63,476 nt of DNA from Hyphomicrobiales bacterium (GTDB taxonomy: Bacteria > Pseudomonadota > Alphaproteobacteria > Rhizobiales > Beijerinckiaceae). The DNA lies in contig JAPLOW010000168.1 in assembly GCA_026400555.1 (NCBI GenBank), positions 1 to 63,476 on the forward strand, written 5' to 3'. Positions 53,901 to 63,431 of this stretch are shown piece by piece (the first letter of the stretch is position 1; every line of letters starts with the position of its first letter). The notes beneath the pieces were generated by a model. The model did not search any database. It saw only the letters and a list, made by a program, of their open reading frames with translations, and was not told the DNA's origin. Made by a program: the position numbers and the translations under genes.

Positions 53901-53970
53901 AGTGGACCAACGGCCACTTCCGACCTAGGTAAGCCGGATAAAACAAGAAGACCATCTGGTGAGGACATCC

Positions 53971-53984
<14 letters not shown>
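50964..53984 (+). CDS. Fused FAD and 4Fe-4S D-2-hydroxyacid dehydrogenase
   Basis: 1006 residues from the ATG at 50964 (earlier in-frame starts lie in the promoter). Residues about 1-520 equal a GlcD-like flavoprotein ([44 protein letters not shown]). From about 560 on comes an iron-sulfur module with CNNNGTCRK, then [14 protein letters not shown], and CCG motifs ([23 protein letters not shown]). It is a single-chain counterpart of GlcD plus GlcF, as in YdiJ-type D-lactate or 2-hydroxyglutarate dehydrogenases. Its last 14 bases overlap the start of the ABC ATPase gene, implying coupled expression. Confidence 0.9.
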
Positions 53985-56040
<2,056 letters not shown>

Positions 56041-56089
56041 ACCCAACACTACAAGCTGGAAACCCGTATCTGCCCAAGGAGGAATGCCC

Positions 56090-57667
56090 ATGATCCGTTC
56101 CGTTGCCATCGGCCTCGCCATCGTGCTTGGCGCAGGCATGGCGTCTGCCCAAACCACGACGCCGACGCGTGGCGGCACGCTTGACTTCGCGGTGGTCTCT
56201 GACCCGCCGAACTATGACTGCCACGCCCATGAGACCTATGTGGTGGTGCAGTCCGTCGGCCCGTTCTATTCGACGCTGCTCAAGTTCGACCACAGCCGCT
56301 ACCCGGAGGTGAAGGGTGACCTGGCACGGAGCTGGACCGTCTCCGCCGACGGGCTGACATACTCTTTCCAACTCAATCCGGACGTCAAATTCCATGACGG
56401 CTCGCCGCTGACCTCGGCGGATGTGAAGGCCACCTATGACCGGATGCGCAATCCGCCGCAGGGCGTGATCTCCCTGCGCCAGGCGACCTTTGCCGACATC
56501 GCCAGCATCGACACGCCGTCGCCGACGGACATTGTCTTCAAGCTCTCGTCGCCAAACCCCTCGATGCTGCAGAACTTCGCCAGCCCCTACAACTGCGTCT
56601 ATTCCGCAGCCAAGCTCAAGGATGATCCACGTTTCCCGCTCCAGAACATCATGGGCAGTGGAGCGTTCCGCTTCGTCGAGCATGTGCGTGGCTCCCACCT
56701 CGTCGGCCAGCGCTTCGACGGCTACTTCGTCAAAGACCGGCCCTATCTCGACGGCTTCCGCATCGCCTATATCCCGCAGCCATCAGCCATGCTGAACGCC
56801 ATGCAGGGCGGGCAGATCAAGGCCGAGTTCCGCACCATCGGCCCGGCTGACAAGGCGCGCCTTGAGCAGGCCATGGGCAACCGCATCAAGTTTCAGGAAG
56901 CCACCTGGTCGACCGGCCTGATCGTCGCCTTCAACACCGAGAAGGCTCCCTTCAACGACCCGCGCGTCCGCCGCGCGCTCTCGCTGGCGCTCGACCGCAA
57001 TGCAGCGAGCGCGGGCCTGCGCCGCACCTCGATCCTGCGCGAGGTCGGCGGGCTCGTGCGGCCAGGCGCACCCTTTGCCGCAAGCGCAACCGAGCTTGCG
57101 GCCCTCCCCGGCTTTGGCCGCGATATCAATGCTGCCCGTGCCGAAGCCCGGCGCCTGTTGGCTGAGGCTGGCGTCTCCAACCTGAAGTTCGCGCTGGTCA
57201 ACCGCGCCGTGGCGCAGCCCTACACACCAGCCGGCATCTTCCTCGTCGATCAGTGGCGCCAGATCGGCGTCGAGGTCGAACATCGCCAGCTTGAAACCTC
57301 GCCCTATGTGCAGGCCGTCCGCGCCGGCAATTTCGACGTCGCCCTCGACTTCCAGAACCAGGTTCTCGAGGACCCGACCTACACACTGCTGCGCTACATC
57401 TCGTCGGACAAGTCGCCCGAGAACCCGTCCAAGCTCGTCGACCGTGAACTGGACGGCCTCTACGAGAAGCTTGTGCGCGAAACCAACGTCGCCGCCCGCA
57501 CGGCGCTCATCCGCGCCTTCGAGGCACGGGTAATGGACAACGCCGCCCAGGTGCCCTTCCTGTGGTGGAACAGGCTGGTCGCCATGGACGCGCGCGTCAA
57601 CGGCTGGGCCATGTCGCCAAGCCACGTGCATGGCCAGGATCTCGTCGACGTCTGGCTCGCTCCGTGA
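56090..57667 (+). CDS. Family-5 ABC substrate-binding protein
   Basis: 525 residues from the ATG at 56090, preceded by AAGGAGG. A signal peptide (cleavage after MASA, about residue 21) leads to a DppA/OppA-type fold (GGTLDFAVVSDPPNYDCHAH, VKFHDGSPLTSADVKATYDR). It is periplasmic and defines the substrate of the transporter, which cannot be read from sequence; peptides, opines and nickel chelates are all carried by this family. Confidence 0.93.
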   Translation: MIRSVAIGLAIVLGAGMASAQTTTPTRGGTLDFAVVSDPPNYDCHAHETYVVVQSVGPFYSTLLKFDHSRYPEVKGDLARSWTVSADGLTYSFQLNPDVKFHDGSPLTSADVKATYDRMRNPPQGVISLRQATFADIASIDTPSPTDIVFKLSSPNPSMLQNFASPYNCVYSAAKLKDDPRFPLQNIMGSGAFRFVEHVRGSHLVGQRFDGYFVKDRPYLDGFRIAYIPQPSAMLNAMQGGQIKAEFRTIGPADKARLEQAMGNRIKFQEATWSTGLIVAFNTEKAPFNDPRVRRALSLALDRNAASAGLRRTSILREVGGLVRPGAPFAASATELAALPGFGRDINAARAEARRLLAEAGVSNLKFALVNRAVAQPYTPAGIFLVDQWRQIGVEVEHRQLETSPYVQAVRAGNFDVALDFQNQVLEDPTYTLLRYISSDKSPENPSKLVDRELDGLYEKLVRETNVAARTALIRAFEARVMDNAAQVPFLWWNRLVAMDARVNGWAMSPSHVHGQDLVDVWLAP

Positions 57668-57687
57668 GAAGCTGAAAGCATACCGCC

Positions 57688-58647
57688 ATGGGCGCCTATC
57701 TTGCCAAACGCATCCTGACGATGATCCCGACGCTGCTTGGCGTCGCGGTCCTCATCTTCCTGATGCTGCGTGTCGTGCCAGGCGACATCGTCGAGCTGAA
57801 AATGCGCGGTGATGGCGGCGCGCCCACCATTCAGCAGATCGAGGCCGAGCGCGCCCGCCTCGGGCTTGACCGGCCGCTGATTGCCCAGTTCGGGAGCTGG
57901 ATGACGGGCCTCGCCACGCTCGACCTCGGCACCTCGATGTGGACCGAAAAGCCCGTCACCGAGGAAATCGCCGGCCGCATCGGCCTGACCCTGCAGGTCG
58001 CGGTCATGGCCACGATCATCGCAATCCTGCTGGCCCTGCCGCTGGGAACACTGTCGGCGCTCTACAAGGACACCTGGGTCGACCAGGCGATCCGGATCTT
58101 CACCATCGGAGGCCTCGCCATTCCCTCCTTCTGGCTCGGAATGATCATCATTCTGGGCCTGCTCTACGCCTTCAACTGGATCCCGCCCATGCAGTATGTG
58201 CCGATCTGGAAGGACCCGCTGGCCAATCTCTCACAACTGATCTGGCCGGCGCTGGCGGTGGGCTACCGCTTCTCCGCCGTGCTGGCCCGCATGGTGCGCT
58301 CCTCCATCATCGAGGTGATGCGCGAGGACTACATCCGCACCGCGCGCGCCAAGGGTGTGCACGAGCGGCTTGTGATCGCGCGCCATGCGCTGCGCAACGC
58401 CATGCTGCCCGCCGTGACGGTGATCGGGCTGGAATTCGCCTTCCTGATCGGCGGCCTCGTGGTCACCGAACAGGTCTTCAATCTCAACGGGCTGGGACGC
58501 CTGTTCGTGCAGGCGGTGTCGCGCTCGGACTTCACCCTGGTGCAGGGGATCGTCATGGTCATCGCGCTGGTCTTCATCGTCAGTAACCTGCTCGTAGACC
58601 TCGCCTATGCCTGGCTTGATCCGCGCATCCGCTACGGGGGCAAATGA
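57688..58647 (+). CDS. ABC permease, DppB type
   Basis: 319 residues, six helices. The N-terminus AKRILTMIPTLLGVAVLIFL and the EAA-like loop (EVMREDYIRTARAKGVHERL) are characteristic. It pairs with the next gene to form the inner-membrane pore. Confidence 0.95.
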   Translation: MGAYLAKRILTMIPTLLGVAVLIFLMLRVVPGDIVELKMRGDGGAPTIQQIEAERARLGLDRPLIAQFGSWMTGLATLDLGTSMWTEKPVTEEIAGRIGLTLQVAVMATIIAILLALPLGTLSALYKDTWVDQAIRIFTIGGLAIPSFWLGMIIILGLLYAFNWIPPMQYVPIWKDPLANLSQLIWPALAVGYRFSAVLARMVRSSIIEVMREDYIRTARAKGVHERLVIARHALRNAMLPAVTVIGLEFAFLIGGLVVTEQVFNLNGLGRLFVQAVSRSDFTLVQGIVMVIALVFIVSNLLVDLAYAWLDPRIRYGGK

Positions 58648-58648
58648 G

Positions 58649-59533
58649 ATGACGCTCGCTGTTCCCGCCCCTGCCCGGGCCCGCCCGAACGCGCTGTGGT
58701 CCTTCATCTCAGCGCAGCCGCTCGGAGCCGTGTCGCTGCTGTTCATCCTCGGGATGGTCTTCGCCAGCCTGTTCGCTATCTGGATCGTGCCGCATGATCC
58801 GCTGAAGTTGGATTTCGCCGAGATCCTGGCGCCACCCTCCCGGAGCTACCCATTCGGTACGGACAATCTGGGCCGCTGCGTCTTCTCGCGCGTCGTCTTC
58901 GGCGCGCGCACCGCCCTGGTGATCGGCATCCTCGCCTCGCTGGTCGGCTCGACCATCGGAGGCCTGATCGGCGTGGTGCAGGGCTATTTCGGCGGCAGAC
59001 TCGATTTCTATGTAAGCCGCTTCATCGACATCCTGCTATCCTTCCCGATCATCGTGCTGGCGCTCGTCGTGGTCGCCATGCTCGGCAAGAAGATCGTGCT
59101 GGGCGTCGACATGAACCTCGTGGTCGCCATTGCGATCCCGATCATCCCGAAGGTCGCCCGCGTCGTCCGCTCCGCATCGCTGTCCGTGCGCGAGATGCCC
59201 TATGTCGACGCCGCCCGCGCCTCGGGCTTTTCGCACCAGCGCATCGTCCTGCGTCACATGGTGCCGAACGTGTTCGCACCCTTCATCATCATGTTCACGG
59301 CCTTTGTCGCGCAGGCGATCCTGCTCGAGGCCTCACTGTCTTTCCTGGGCCTCGGCGTGACCGAACCAACCCCGGCCTGGGGTCTGATGCTGGCGGGCAA
59401 TGCCGCGGACTTCTATCGCGAAGCGCCCTGGATGATCATCTTTCCGGGCCTCGCGATCTCGCTTTCGGTGTTTGCCTTCAATCTCTTCGGCGACGCCCTG
59501 CGCGACCACCTCGACCCGCGCTTCAAGGTGTGA
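58649..59533 (+). CDS. ABC permease, DppC type
   Basis: 294 residues from the ATG at 58649, one base after the stop of the first permease. It carries the DppC N-terminal segment and the HPFGTDNLG-like loop (SYPFGTDNLGRCVFSRVVFG), and the EAA-like loop REMPYVDAARASGFS. It closes the transporter operon. Confidence 0.95.
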   Translation: MTLAVPAPARARPNALWSFISAQPLGAVSLLFILGMVFASLFAIWIVPHDPLKLDFAEILAPPSRSYPFGTDNLGRCVFSRVVFGARTALVIGILASLVGSTIGGLIGVVQGYFGGRLDFYVSRFIDILLSFPIIVLALVVVAMLGKKIVLGVDMNLVVAIAIPIIPKVARVVRSASLSVREMPYVDAARASGFSHQRIVLRHMVPNVFAPFIIMFTAFVAQAILLEASLSFLGLGVTEPTPAWGLMLAGNAADFYREAPWMIIFPGLAISLSVFAFNLFGDALRDHLDPRFKV

Positions 59534-59550
59534 ACAGAGGCTTCTTGCCG

Positions 59551-59709
59551 ATGCTTGCCAAAGCCCCCTTCCGCCCATATTATCGTGACATGTCACCACA
59601 TGCCGCACGCTTGTCAGCCTGCTCTTGCGCCAGTGCCGCAAGCGTGACTGTCTGCGGCGCACCGCTGAATGGCCTTCTCCTCGGCAAGCTTCTGCTTACC
59701 AGCCCCTGA
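59551..59709 (+). CDS. leuL: Leucine-rich leader peptide of leuA
   Basis: A 52-codon frame (ATG 59551, TGA 59707-59709) ends in GLLLGKLLLTSP, giving six leucine codons in the last twelve (59674-59682 and 59689-59697), using CTT, CTC and CTG. An inner ATG at 59590 would give a 39-residue version. Leader peptides of this form control leucine synthesis genes by ribosome stalling when charged tRNA-Leu is scarce. The stop codon lies inside the 5' arm of the first hairpin. The upstream ribosome site is weak, so the exact start is open. Confidence 0.75.
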   Translation: MLAKAPFRPYYRDMSPHAARLSACSCASAASVTVCGAPLNGLLLGKLLLTSP

Positions 59710-59766
59710 GGGCCGTCCGGGCATTGGGCCTGGGCCTTCAGGGGGTCATGCACGAAAGCCCCTGAA
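59703..59766 (+). promoter_or_regulatory. leu attenuator: two mutually exclusive hairpins
   Basis: Arm 59703-59714 (CCCCTGAGGGCC) can pair with 59733-59744 (GGCCTTCAGGGG), 12 pairs with one G-U. The second half of that arm (59737-59744, TTCAGGGG) can instead pair with 59759-59766 (CCCCTGAA), 8 perfect pairs. Only one can form at a time. No U-run follows the second hairpin, so the mechanism may be Rho-dependent or act on leuA translation instead of classic intrinsic termination. Confidence 0.7.
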
Positions 59767-59834
59767 CAGCCCGCCGCAAATCAGCTAGAGAGCTGGAAAA
59801 GTGCGGAGCGGGCAACCGCAGAGAGGAAAATCCC

Positions 59835-61376
59835 ATGTCCAAATCCCAGGTCCTGATCTTCGACACCACCTTGCGCGACGGCGAGCAGTCGCCTGGCGCC
59901 ACCATGACCTTCGAAGAGAAGCTCGAAATCGCCGACATGCTCGACACCATGGGCGTCGACATTGTCGAAGCCGGCTTTCCGATCGCCTCGAATGGCGACT
60001 TCGAGGCCGTCCACGCCATCGCCAAGCGCCTGAAGCGCGCTACGGTGGCCGGCCTCGCCCGCGCCATCAACGCCGACATCGACCGGGCCGGCGAAGCCGT
60101 GCGCGTTGCACAGCGCGGCCGCATTCACACCTTTGTCTTCACCTCGCCGATCCATCTCGAACACCAGATGCGCAAGACGCAGGACGAGGTGCTCGCGATC
60201 ATCGTGGCCACCGTGGCGCGCGCCCGCAACCTTGTCGAGGATGTCGAATGGTCGGCGATGGACGCAACCCGCACGCCGATCGACTATCTCTGCCGCTGCG
60301 TCGAAGCCGCGATCAAGGCCGGCGCCACCACCATCAACCTGCCGGACACCGTGGGCTACGCCACGCCCGATGACCACCGCCGGATGTTCTCCGAGATCAT
60401 CGCCCGCGTGCCCAACAGCGACAAGGCGATCTTCTCGGCCCATTGCCACGACGATCTCGGCCTTGCCGTCGCCAACTCGCTGGCGGCTCTGGAAGGCGGG
60501 GCCCGCCAGATCGAATGCACCATCAACGGCATCGGCGAGCGGGCCGGCAACACTGCGCTCGAGGAGATCGTCATGGCGATCCGCACGCGCGGAGACGTAT
60601 TCCCCTACGAGACCGGCATCGAGAGCCGGATGCTGACCAAGGCTTCCAAGATGGTCTCGAACGCAACCTCCTTCCCGGTCCAGTACAACAAGGCCATCGT
60701 CGGCCGGAACGCCTTCGCCCATGAAAGCGGCATCCACCAGGACGGCATGCTGAAGAACCAGACCACCTACGAGATCATGACGCCGGAATCGGTCGGCGTA
60801 CAGAAGACCTCGCTGGTGATGGGCAAGCATTCGGGCCGCGCCGCCTTCAAGGACAAGCTGAAAGCGCTGGGCTACGAGCTGGGGGACAACCAGATCGAGG
60901 ACGCTTTCGTCCGCTTCAAGGCCCTCGCCGACCGCAAGAAGCACGTCTACGACGAGGACATCGAGGCGCTGGTTGATGACAACATCGCCACGGCGCATGA
61001 CCGCGCCAAGCTGGTCTCGCTCTCGGTGATTGCCGGCACACGCGGCCCGCAGCGCGCCACGATGAAGATCGAACTCGACGGCAGGATCATCACCGAGGAA
61101 GCCGAGGGCAACGGCCCTGTGGACGCCACCTTCAACTGCATCAAGGCGATCATGCCGCACGAGGTGGTGCTGGAACTCTATCAGGTCCATGCAGTGACCG
61201 AGGGCACCGACGCGCAGGCGGAGGTGTCGGTCCGGCTCAGCCGCGACGGCAATTCGGTGACGGGGCGCGGCGCCGATCCTGACACCCTCGTGTCATCGGC
61301 CCGCGCCTATCTGATGGCGCTCAACAAGCTCGAAGCACGCGGCGCCAGGGTGCATCCGCAGCGAGCGGCAGAATAG
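59835..61376 (+). CDS. leuA: 2-isopropylmalate synthase
   Basis: 513 residues, the normal length for LeuA with its regulatory domain. [16 protein letters not shown] (about 9-24) opens the catalytic barrel. [15 protein letters not shown] carries metal-binding histidines, and [13 protein letters not shown] and [15 protein letters not shown] are further signatures. From about residue 370 on is the LeuA dimer/allosteric domain that binds leucine. It commits 2-oxoisovalerate to leucine. AGAGGAAAA precedes the ATG. It is headed by a leucine-rich leader and ends in TAG. Confidence 0.95.
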
Positions 61377-61492
61377 GTCAACCAGGAACTGCGGGACTGA
61401 TGGCGCATCCCCTCTCCTGACGTCTCCCGCAAGGGCGGAGGTCAAGCGCGAGGGGTCGATCGGCTCCTTGATTGAACAGGAATATCCCGCCC

Positions 61493-62386
61493 ATGTCCGC
61501 GCCCCGCAAGTATCTCCTCGTCCTGTTCTGGATGCTTGGCTCGCTGACGGCTTTCAGCGGCGTGGCCCTTTCGATCCGCGGACTGCAGGGCGCGCTGACG
61601 GTTTTCGAGATGCTGGCCATCCGCAACATCGGCGGGCTGGTCATTCTCGCGGCCATGATGCTGCTTGCGCCGGGCCCCGACCAGACGATGCGCATGGCGC
61701 GCCCACAGATGCACGGCCTGCGCAACATCGCCCACTTCGCCGGCCAGGCGCTGTGGGTCTACGGCGTCACGGTGCTGCCGCTGGCCACTGTGTTCGCCAT
61801 TGAATTCACCACGCCCTGCTGGGTCGCGCTGTTTGCGGTGCTCTTCCTCAAGGAGCGCCTGACCCTCTTCCGCGCCCTTGCGATCGCGCTGGGTTTTGTC
61901 GGCGTGCTGATCATCCTCAGACCGGGCATGGAGAGCTTCCGCCCCGCGGCGCTTGCGGTGGTACTGGCCGCCGTGTTCTTCGGCATCCAGATCACCACAA
62001 CCAAGTTCCTCACGGGCTCCAATTCGACCTGGACCATCATGTTCTGGATGAACCTGATGCAGTTGCCGATGAACATGCTGGCCAACGGGTTGAACGGGCA
62101 TTCCCCGCTGATCATCGACAGGCTGGGCTGGGACATCTGGCTGCCCGCGCTGGGCATCGCCGTCACCGGGTTCCTCGCGCATTACTGCCTCACCAACGCT
62201 TTCCGCCATGGCGACGCGACGCTGGTCGTGCCGATCGACTTCCTGCGCGTGCCACTGATCGCGCTGATCGGCTGGCTGTTCTACAATGAAACCCCGGAGC
62301 TGGCGGTGCTGATCGGCGCGCTTGTCGTGATCGGCGGCGTGATCATCAACCTCGCAGCCGAGGCGCGGGCAAAACGTCAGGGCTGA
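61493..62386 (+). CDS. DMT-family (EamA) transporter
   Basis: 297 residues from the ATG at 61493; a TTG seven codons earlier is possible. Two EamA repeats, about ten helices, with LPLATVFAIEFTTPCWVALF in the first and VPIDFLRVPLIALIGWLFY in the second. Probably an exporter or importer of an amino acid or small metabolite. Its 3' end overlaps that of the convergent gene by 10 bases. An imperfect hairpin near 61419-61443 between leuA and this gene may end leuA transcription. Confidence 0.88.
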   Translation: MSAPRKYLLVLFWMLGSLTAFSGVALSIRGLQGALTVFEMLAIRNIGGLVILAAMMLLAPGPDQTMRMARPQMHGLRNIAHFAGQALWVYGVTVLPLATVFAIEFTTPCWVALFAVLFLKERLTLFRALAIALGFVGVLIILRPGMESFRPAALAVVLAAVFFGIQITTTKFLTGSNSTWTIMFWMNLMQLPMNMLANGLNGHSPLIIDRLGWDIWLPALGIAVTGFLAHYCLTNAFRHGDATLVVPIDFLRVPLIALIGWLFYNETPELAVLIGALVVIGGVIINLAAEARAKRQG

Positions 62387-63258
62387 ACGGTCTTTGCCGC
62401 ACGCTGCTCATCCCAGAATATCCAGAACCCGGACGCCACAATGATCAGCGCACCGACCACGGTCGAGGGCGGCGGGATGTCGCCAAAAACGGCATAGCCA
62501 AGCACCCCGACCCAGACGATGAGCGAATACTGGTACGGCACCACGGTGGACGCAGGTGCCAGCTTCAGCGAGCGGTTGGTCGCCATATGCCCGAACAGCG
62601 CCACGACGCCGAGCAGCGACAGCAGGGCCACGTCACGCCATGACGGCGTGACCCAGCCGAAGGGCGCGAGCAGCACGCCCATGCCCAGCGCGGCGCCCGA
62701 CTGCCAGGCCACGAGCGTCGTGTCTGACGTGCCCTTGAGCTTGCGGGTGACCACCATCATGCCGGCAAAGGCCAGCGCGCCGCTCATCGCGATCAACGAT
62801 GGCCAGCCGAAGTCCGCGCCCGGGTTGAGCGCGATGCCGACGCCGACGAAGCCGAACGCGATCGCGAACCAGCGGCTCAGGCTGATGTGTTCGCCGAGGA
62901 ACGGCCGGGCCAGCAGCGCAACGAAGATCGGCCCCGCCAGAAAAAAGGTCACGGCCTGCGCCAGCGGCAGATAGGTCACGGCCCAGTAGAAGAACGCGAC
63001 ATCGATGGTCGACAGCACCACGCGCAGCACGTGCAGCCTGCGGTTGGGCGGATTCGCGATGGCCTCGACCCCCTCGCGCGCAATCGCCGGCGCCAGTACA
63101 AGCATGGCCGCGCCGCTGCGGAACAGGAGCACCTGGCCGACCGTGTAGGTCGCGACGAGCCATTTGCCGAGCACGTCGTTCACCGAAAACAGGAACATGC
63201 CAAGCAGCATGAGCAGGATGCCGGCAAACACCGGGCGGGTCGTCATAAGATGGCGCAT
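62377..63258 (-). CDS. DMT-family (EamA) transporter
   Basis: 293 residues from the ATG at 63258; another ATG at 63246 and a TTG at 63294 are alternatives, none with a clear ribosome site. Two EamA repeats, about ten helices, with LPLAQAVTFFLAGPIFVALL and VVPYQYSLIVWVGVLGYAVF. It is related in fold, but not closely, to the convergent transporter at 61493. Confidence 0.87.
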   Translation of the reverse strand: MRHLMTTRPVFAGILLMLLGMFLFSVNDVLGKWLVATYTVGQVLLFRSGAAMLVLAPAIAREGVEAIANPPNRRLHVLRVVLSTIDVAFFYWAVTYLPLAQAVTFFLAGPIFVALLARPFLGEHISLSRWFAIAFGFVGVGIALNPGADFGWPSLIAMSGALAFAGMMVVTRKLKGTSDTTLVAWQSGAALGMGVLLAPFGWVTPSWRDVALLSLLGVVALFGHMATNRSLKLAPASTVVPYQYSLIVWVGVLGYAVFGDIPPPSTVVGALIIVASGFWIFWDEQRAAKTVQP

Positions 63259-63431
63259 GAAGGCTCGGCAGGAGAGCGGATGGCGTTCCGCCAAAAGCGC
63301 TTAGCGCTGCCGGGCCGCCCTGTCACCGCTGAATACGCGCCGTCGCATGCTCGCCACGCATCGGTTGTGAACCAAACCCGACAAAAGGGGCTGGACAGCA
63401 CCGCACCCCTTTGCTACTGCCCACCTCGTTG

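Follow-up and report, generated by a model that had tools for sequence, protein, structure and literature searches.

A leucine-codon leader and a covarying hairpin upstream of leuA as a candidate leucine-sensing translational attenuator in Alphaproteobacteria

The window analysed here is the whole stretch of 63,476 nucleotides from contig JAPLOW010000168.1 (GCA_026400555.1), read on the forward strand. It carries leuA (59835..61376, +, start ATG at 59835), encoding 2-isopropylmalate synthase, with a product that scores above the NCBIfam TIGR00973 cut-off (688.6 bits against 598.7), and immediately upstream a short leader and a stable hairpin that we propose as a leucine-responsive control element. 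The leader frame (59551..59709, +) has ATG 59551, ATG 59590 and GTG 59644 as candidate starts, and ends in the tail NGLLLGKLLLTSP with its stop TGA at 59707-59709; the Leu-rich end GLLLGKLLLTSP followed by UGA, described in a first-pass annotation of this DNA, is present in the window as claimed. Two trios of leucine codons lie in this tail on the same strand, CTT CTC CTC (59674..59682) and CTT CTG CTT (59689..59697), the latter closing with the CTT at 59695-59697. Hairpin A:B (59703..59744, +) follows, with arms 59703-59714 and 59733-59744 and an inner stem of 59718-59722 with 59728-59732, and is predicted to fold at -31.9 kcal/mol with the leader TGA inside its 5' arm, the placement reported in the same annotation. 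The likely leuA Shine-Dalgarno sequence, GAGAGGA (59821..59827, +), is the proposed target of the leucine-codon tract, a proposal tested at family level, with the first trio lying partly, and weakly, opposite it in the minimum-free-energy fold of the window.

Upstream regions of leuA were sampled as the best 80 loci of a longer list together with the 30 best loci among 130 matching genomes, the window's own included, and two loci (L096 and L097) identical to others were dropped, leaving 108 distinct upstreams; that of L096, from a genome (G052) of the same genus as the window, is identical to that of Bosea lupini (L009), which marks the window's genome as Bosea-like. A Leu-rich tail ending Pro-stop and followed by the first hairpin is found in 107 of the 108, the window's included, with the tail 93-192 bases before leuA, L068 being the sole upstream of the 108 without this combination and Methylorubrum rhodinum (L015) being one of the carriers. 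These 107 members of the window's order yielded 97 distinct sequences for alignment A1 and 88 representatives for energy tests, with 47 of 60 chosen diverse sequences used for a second alignment, A2. Paired cells make up 96.7% of the 1647 cells of A:B in A1 and 96.5% of those of the outer stem in A2, shares that are biased towards the stem, with rows having been found and trimmed with it in mind, compensating changes being less affected. Both sides have changed at 9 of the 17 pairs in A1, with 61 two-sided cells against 13.0 ± 3.1 in shuffles, none of 500 shuffles reaching any of five measures, and free structure prediction on A1 returning the same hairpin. The count of pairs with two-sided change in A2 is unexceptional (73/500 shuffles), all other measures being reached by 0/500. 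Across 196 sequences all eight outer pairs are formed in 182, and the leader stop is TGA in 183, TAG in 9 and TAA in 4, with the altered stop base remaining paired in 12 of the 13 TAG or TAA leaders and the pair retained in 6/6 CCC to CTC changes within the stem. The alignments indicate that hairpin A:B is a covarying structure, and the comparison of relatives put forward in the first-pass annotation, in search of conserved leucine codons and a covarying stem, comes out in favour of the first hairpin.

The leucine codons of the leader are conserved in a fixed register. Counted back from the stop, codon -4 is CTT in all 107 leaders of the order, including 59695-59697 of the window, and either CTT (82) or CTA (7) in 89 distant leaders, with 9 of 74 class loci that have no stop codon at the expected place omitted from the codon and terminator counts; in leuA of the order loci CTT accounts for just 2.3% of 3644 leucine codons. 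Codons -5 and -6 have near-fixed first and second bases and a variable third, which argues that the leader is translated. Arg CGA occupies codon -5 in 47 of the 89 distant leaders, so a long run of leucine codons does not appear to be required. Two further ideas were considered and set aside. Openness of the reading frame was rejected as proof of translation, with at least 16 codons open in frame 0 in 107/107 leaders, in frame +1 in 100/107, and in frame +2 in 57/107. Peptide arrest by a proline before the stop, as in TnaC-like leaders, was rejected because eight loci with TGG at the stop position (L175, L176, L216, L230, L247, L249, L252, and L253) keep the CTT, the five-base spacer, and the stem, as judged by eye, without a stop at that place; furthermore, proline is replaced by leucine in 6/89 distant leaders, all six of which retain the stem pair.

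Complementarity was assessed as the duplex energy of the leucine-codon tract (positions -27 to -6 relative to the stop) with the last 22 bases ahead of the gene's start codon, own against swapped partners. Before the test on distant loci, L143 (no stop found) and the near copies L123 and L135 were removed, and 11 of the 74 class loci were omitted from the swap test on account of a missing stop, a distance of at least 260, or a Shine-Dalgarno region meeting the hairpin. The predicted own duplex is the stronger one in all three sets: z is -4.8 in the 88 order representatives (own -10.50, swapped -9.41; remaining leader windows +0.1 to -0.6 and 0.6), -4.9 in 22 distant loci (own -12.07, swapped -9.39; control windows -1.4, -1.7, and 0.2), and -6.8 in 63 further loci (control windows -1.9, -0.7, and -0.2), the last giving z -5.3 when reduced to one locus per family (n = 46). 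The signal survives swaps matched for GC content (z -4.4, -3.3, and -5.0, with the remaining leader windows between +0.8 and -1.7), which speaks against GC content as its source, and persists when the order is thinned by LeuA identity (z -4.2 at both n = 77 and n = 60); within the order set it is limited to approximately -24..0 before the start codon. A leucine run complementary to the Shine-Dalgarno sequence is indicated at family level, the same complementarity being weak in the window alone. Masking of the leucine codons raises mean predicted Shine-Dalgarno accessibility from 0.33 to 0.50 (n = 88), from 0.31 to 0.46 (n = 46), and from 0.19 to 0.52 (n = 22), with no rise under either an upstream control mask or a mask over the hairpin, both of which gave 0.32, 0.33, and 0.20 in these sets.

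An insertion between leader and leuA offers a natural comparison. In two loci of family f24 (L167 and L188) a gene read as cupin-like, 115 residues long in L167, lies between the leader and leuA, and the tract could form eight pairs with the Shine-Dalgarno sequence of this gene at -10.1 and -9.2 kcal/mol (values without a swap control), with weaker energies of -4.5 and -5.9 kcal/mol for that of leuA. Where f24 loci lack the cupin-like gene, four of nine (L238, L239, L240, and L245) pair well with the leuA Shine-Dalgarno sequence, at -10.1 to -16.8.

We consider it probable that this element is a leucine-sensing translational attenuator, in which the leucine codons double as an anti-Shine-Dalgarno sequence and a stalled ribosome would free the gene. 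The short leader would finish on leucine codons, of which a rare CUU comes last, and after a spacer of five bases a highly stable hairpin follows, usually with the leader stop inside it. With ample leucine the ribosome would read through and depart, allowing the tract to pair with the Shine-Dalgarno sequence of the next gene and close it, with the hairpin staying folded between the two paired segments. When leucine is scarce, the ribosome would stall on the leucine codons and cover the tract, setting the Shine-Dalgarno sequence free, with stalling perhaps aided by the hairpin acting as a roadblock at the ribosome entry site. The sequences themselves show the leader tail, covariation of the hairpin, a scarcity of terminator-like sites, and the family-level complementarity; to these the model adds putative translation with stalling, the presumed roadblock, and a presumed direction of regulation. 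Of the options raised in the first-pass annotation, which held that the decision step might be Rho-dependent or translational, the recurring complementarity between the tract and the next gene's Shine-Dalgarno sequence favours the latter.

Several results weigh against this model, however. Windows intended as controls in the n = 46 set (-44..-22 and -38..-16) themselves gave z -4.5 and -5.6, so that complementarity extends upstream of the Shine-Dalgarno sequence in that set, and a wider leader window across the order gave only z -1.3 (295/3000). Stronger thinning by LeuA identity reduces the signal to z -2.2 (n = 37, control -1.4) and -2.7 (n = 15, control -1.5), and single loci beat shuffles at p<0.05 in just 16/88, 8/22, and 10/46 cases. 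The sets are not independent, sharing relatives and some families, with families f175-f179 of the third set belonging to the window's order and L229 repeating the element of L027. In f24 loci without the cupin-like gene, five of nine (L241-L244 and L246) pair weakly, at -4.0 to -7.8. Per locus, predicted accessibility rises by more than 0.15 in 43/88, 19/46, and 16/22, and falls in 4, 3, and 0; a mask at the stop codon likewise raises it, to 0.46, 0.45, and 0.37, and the model therefore needs quick release of the ribosome. In the window itself the pairing is weak, its own Shine-Dalgarno sequence ranking 25 of 88 for its leader and its accessibility hardly moving upon masking of the leucine codons (0.44 to 0.44-0.48), so that in the window's species the proposed stall step rests on homology.

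Searches with structure models place the element in many Alphaproteobacteria. At E<=0.01 a model of the hairpin (R1) has hits in 34 of the 385 class genomes, with leuA downstream in 30/30 of the loci listed, one of which is the window. A broader model (R2) matched 127/385 at E<=0.05, a few of these by chance, under strict filters and with genomes lacking leuA kept in the denominator, and in a sample of the phylum it matched 60/299, eight of these lying outside the class at E 0.007-0.044. Among 80 R2 matches fetched, an isopropylmalate synthase gene lies downstream in 74 of 78 class loci and 0 of 2 loci outside the class; no R2 match was found in the 13 genomes listed for family f174 of the window's order. 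In two loci, L213 (414-1100) and L222 (433-1101), the downstream open reading frame (ORF) is cut and best fits the type-2 (yeast-type) synthase models PRK03739 and TIGR00970, at scores below their whole-protein cut-offs. We rate as about evenly balanced the broader proposal that such a leucine switch is widespread in Alphaproteobacteria. Under it the sensor codons would themselves serve as the anti-Shine-Dalgarno sequence of the next gene, phasing would come from a rare CUU five bases ahead of a roadblock hairpin usually holding the stop, and the arrangement would persist at the leucine locus even where the following gene is a cupin-like insertion or encodes a type-2 isopropylmalate synthase.

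The first-pass annotation had envisaged two hairpins sharing the arm 59733-59744, and an attenuation of transcription built on them is one alternative. In this scheme a ribosome at the leader stop would block arm A, so that B:C forms and Rho or an imperfect terminator acts in place of one with a U-run, whilst a stall further upstream would permit A:B and read-through. Arm C (59756..59775, +) could indeed pair with 59728-59744 in place of arm A, with a duplex energy of -22.1 that beats dinucleotide shuffles (z -2.7) in the window, and the closest relative (L087) retains CCCCTGAAC. Among the 88 order representatives B:C exceeds shuffles at p<0.05 in 20, Bradyrhizobium and Microvirga loci included, with a mean z of -0.77, and own against swapped partners give no signal (579/1000 and 987/1000), though with low power, arm B being nearly invariant. 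The shared-arm arrangement is possible in the window and unsupported as a general switch; the second hairpin seems lineage-specific at best, and B:C may matter more in the window's species than elsewhere. Terminator-like sites are also scarce: no U-run follows either hairpin in the window, as had been noted for the second, so that the intrinsic terminator expected before the first gene of a classical attenuator is missing there, and a hairpin followed by at least four T residues between the leader stop and the gene occurs in just 3/107, 3/24, and 2/63 loci of the three sets. Transcription attenuation would additionally leave the complementarity between tract and Shine-Dalgarno sequence and the cupin loci unexplained, and we regard it as unlikely, retaining it for some lineages.

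The hairpin could instead be the site of an RNA-binding protein with the leader secondary, as the authors of the actinobacterial LEU element proposed for their system. Alignment A1 shows no variation in the stem's CCCC and GGGG, so that base identity may count beyond pairing; a protein site, however, would need neither the third-position variation at leucine codons nor the fixed CTT or CTA codon, and the inner hairpin is free to vary in distant members, making this explanation rather improbable. Even less credence is given to a constitutive element for mRNA stability or coupling that senses no leucine. Placed directly ahead of a gene, so stable a hairpin could protect an mRNA end, yet such a role would not account for the enrichment of leucine codons, the rare codon at a fixed place, or the consistency with which a synthase gene lies downstream of the R1 and class loci.

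The classical leu attenuator of enteric bacteria has a leader peptide with rare leucine codons upstream of leuA, and requires both a U-run terminator and an antiterminator. The element described here likewise has a leader peptide upstream of leuA with rare leucine codons, and is rich in codons for the amino acid of the pathway, as classical trp and leu attenuators are. In contrast to the enteric system, the window lacks a U-run and holds no Rfam 15 family at gathering score, the best of three matches (59530-59860) having an E value of 3.1. In Campylobacter and relatives, LeuL also has rare leucine codons near the leader C-terminus, there before leuABCD, but the leader RNAs are reported to end shortly after the stop codon, taken as transcription termination (PMC3847290). 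A terminator-type ilvBN attenuator is described for Caulobacter in the consulted portion of PMC4117421, with leuA not mentioned there, and that of PMC10117765 on S. meliloti does not mention leuA.

The actinobacterial LEU element upstream of leuA, as presented by Seliverstov et al. 2005 (PMC1262725), shares with our element a leucine run able to pair with the leuA Shine-Dalgarno sequence, a pairing proposed by its authors, and the lack of a classical attenuator. Leader mutations published earlier did not agree with attenuation, which led its authors to prefer a binding protein. Their element is from a different phylum, Actinobacteria, and what its base stem encloses is portrayed as a conserved pseudoknot, in contrast to the single covarying hairpin here, usually with the stop (no pseudoknot search was made). 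Similarly, with the mycobacterial polycysteine short ORFs (Canestrari et al. 2020, as cited in PMC9031893 and PMC9094748), translation of the next gene is set by the speed of ribosomes on amino-acid codons of the short ORF ahead of it; those ORFs are leaderless, involve cysteine and other genes, and were tested experimentally, whereas our case is made from sequence. The kind of mechanism proposed is already known from these two systems, with the hairpin-with-stop form not found in the open-access literature searched. Among the papers listed there none named an alphaproteobacterial leuA leader element, although an earlier prediction (e.g. Vitreschak et al. 2004, on proteobacterial attenuators) is possible. 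If the model holds, leucine synthesis in many Alphaproteobacteria would be under one compact element without a terminator or regulator protein, it and the LEU element would have in common that regulatory codons also act as an anti-Shine-Dalgarno sequence, and the old puzzle of that element would become testable in convenient species, with the rules for codon, spacing, and pairing defining clear mutants.

Some minor observations concern individual loci. Identity to the window LeuA is 25-27% for the LeuA-like ORFs of L247-L251, which may be of the same type-2 kind as those of L213 and L222. In L147 a unit of approximately 25 bases, ending GGGCTAAATT, is present in three copies between the hairpin and leuA, as seen by eye. 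Within the window, ORFs upstream of the leader (53959-59533) resemble what we take to be a peptide ATP-binding cassette transporter operon, and downstream of leuA the convergent ORFs 61472-62386 (+) and 62377-63294 (-), which presumably encode proteins like the drug/metabolite transporters (DMT), overlap at their 3' ends.
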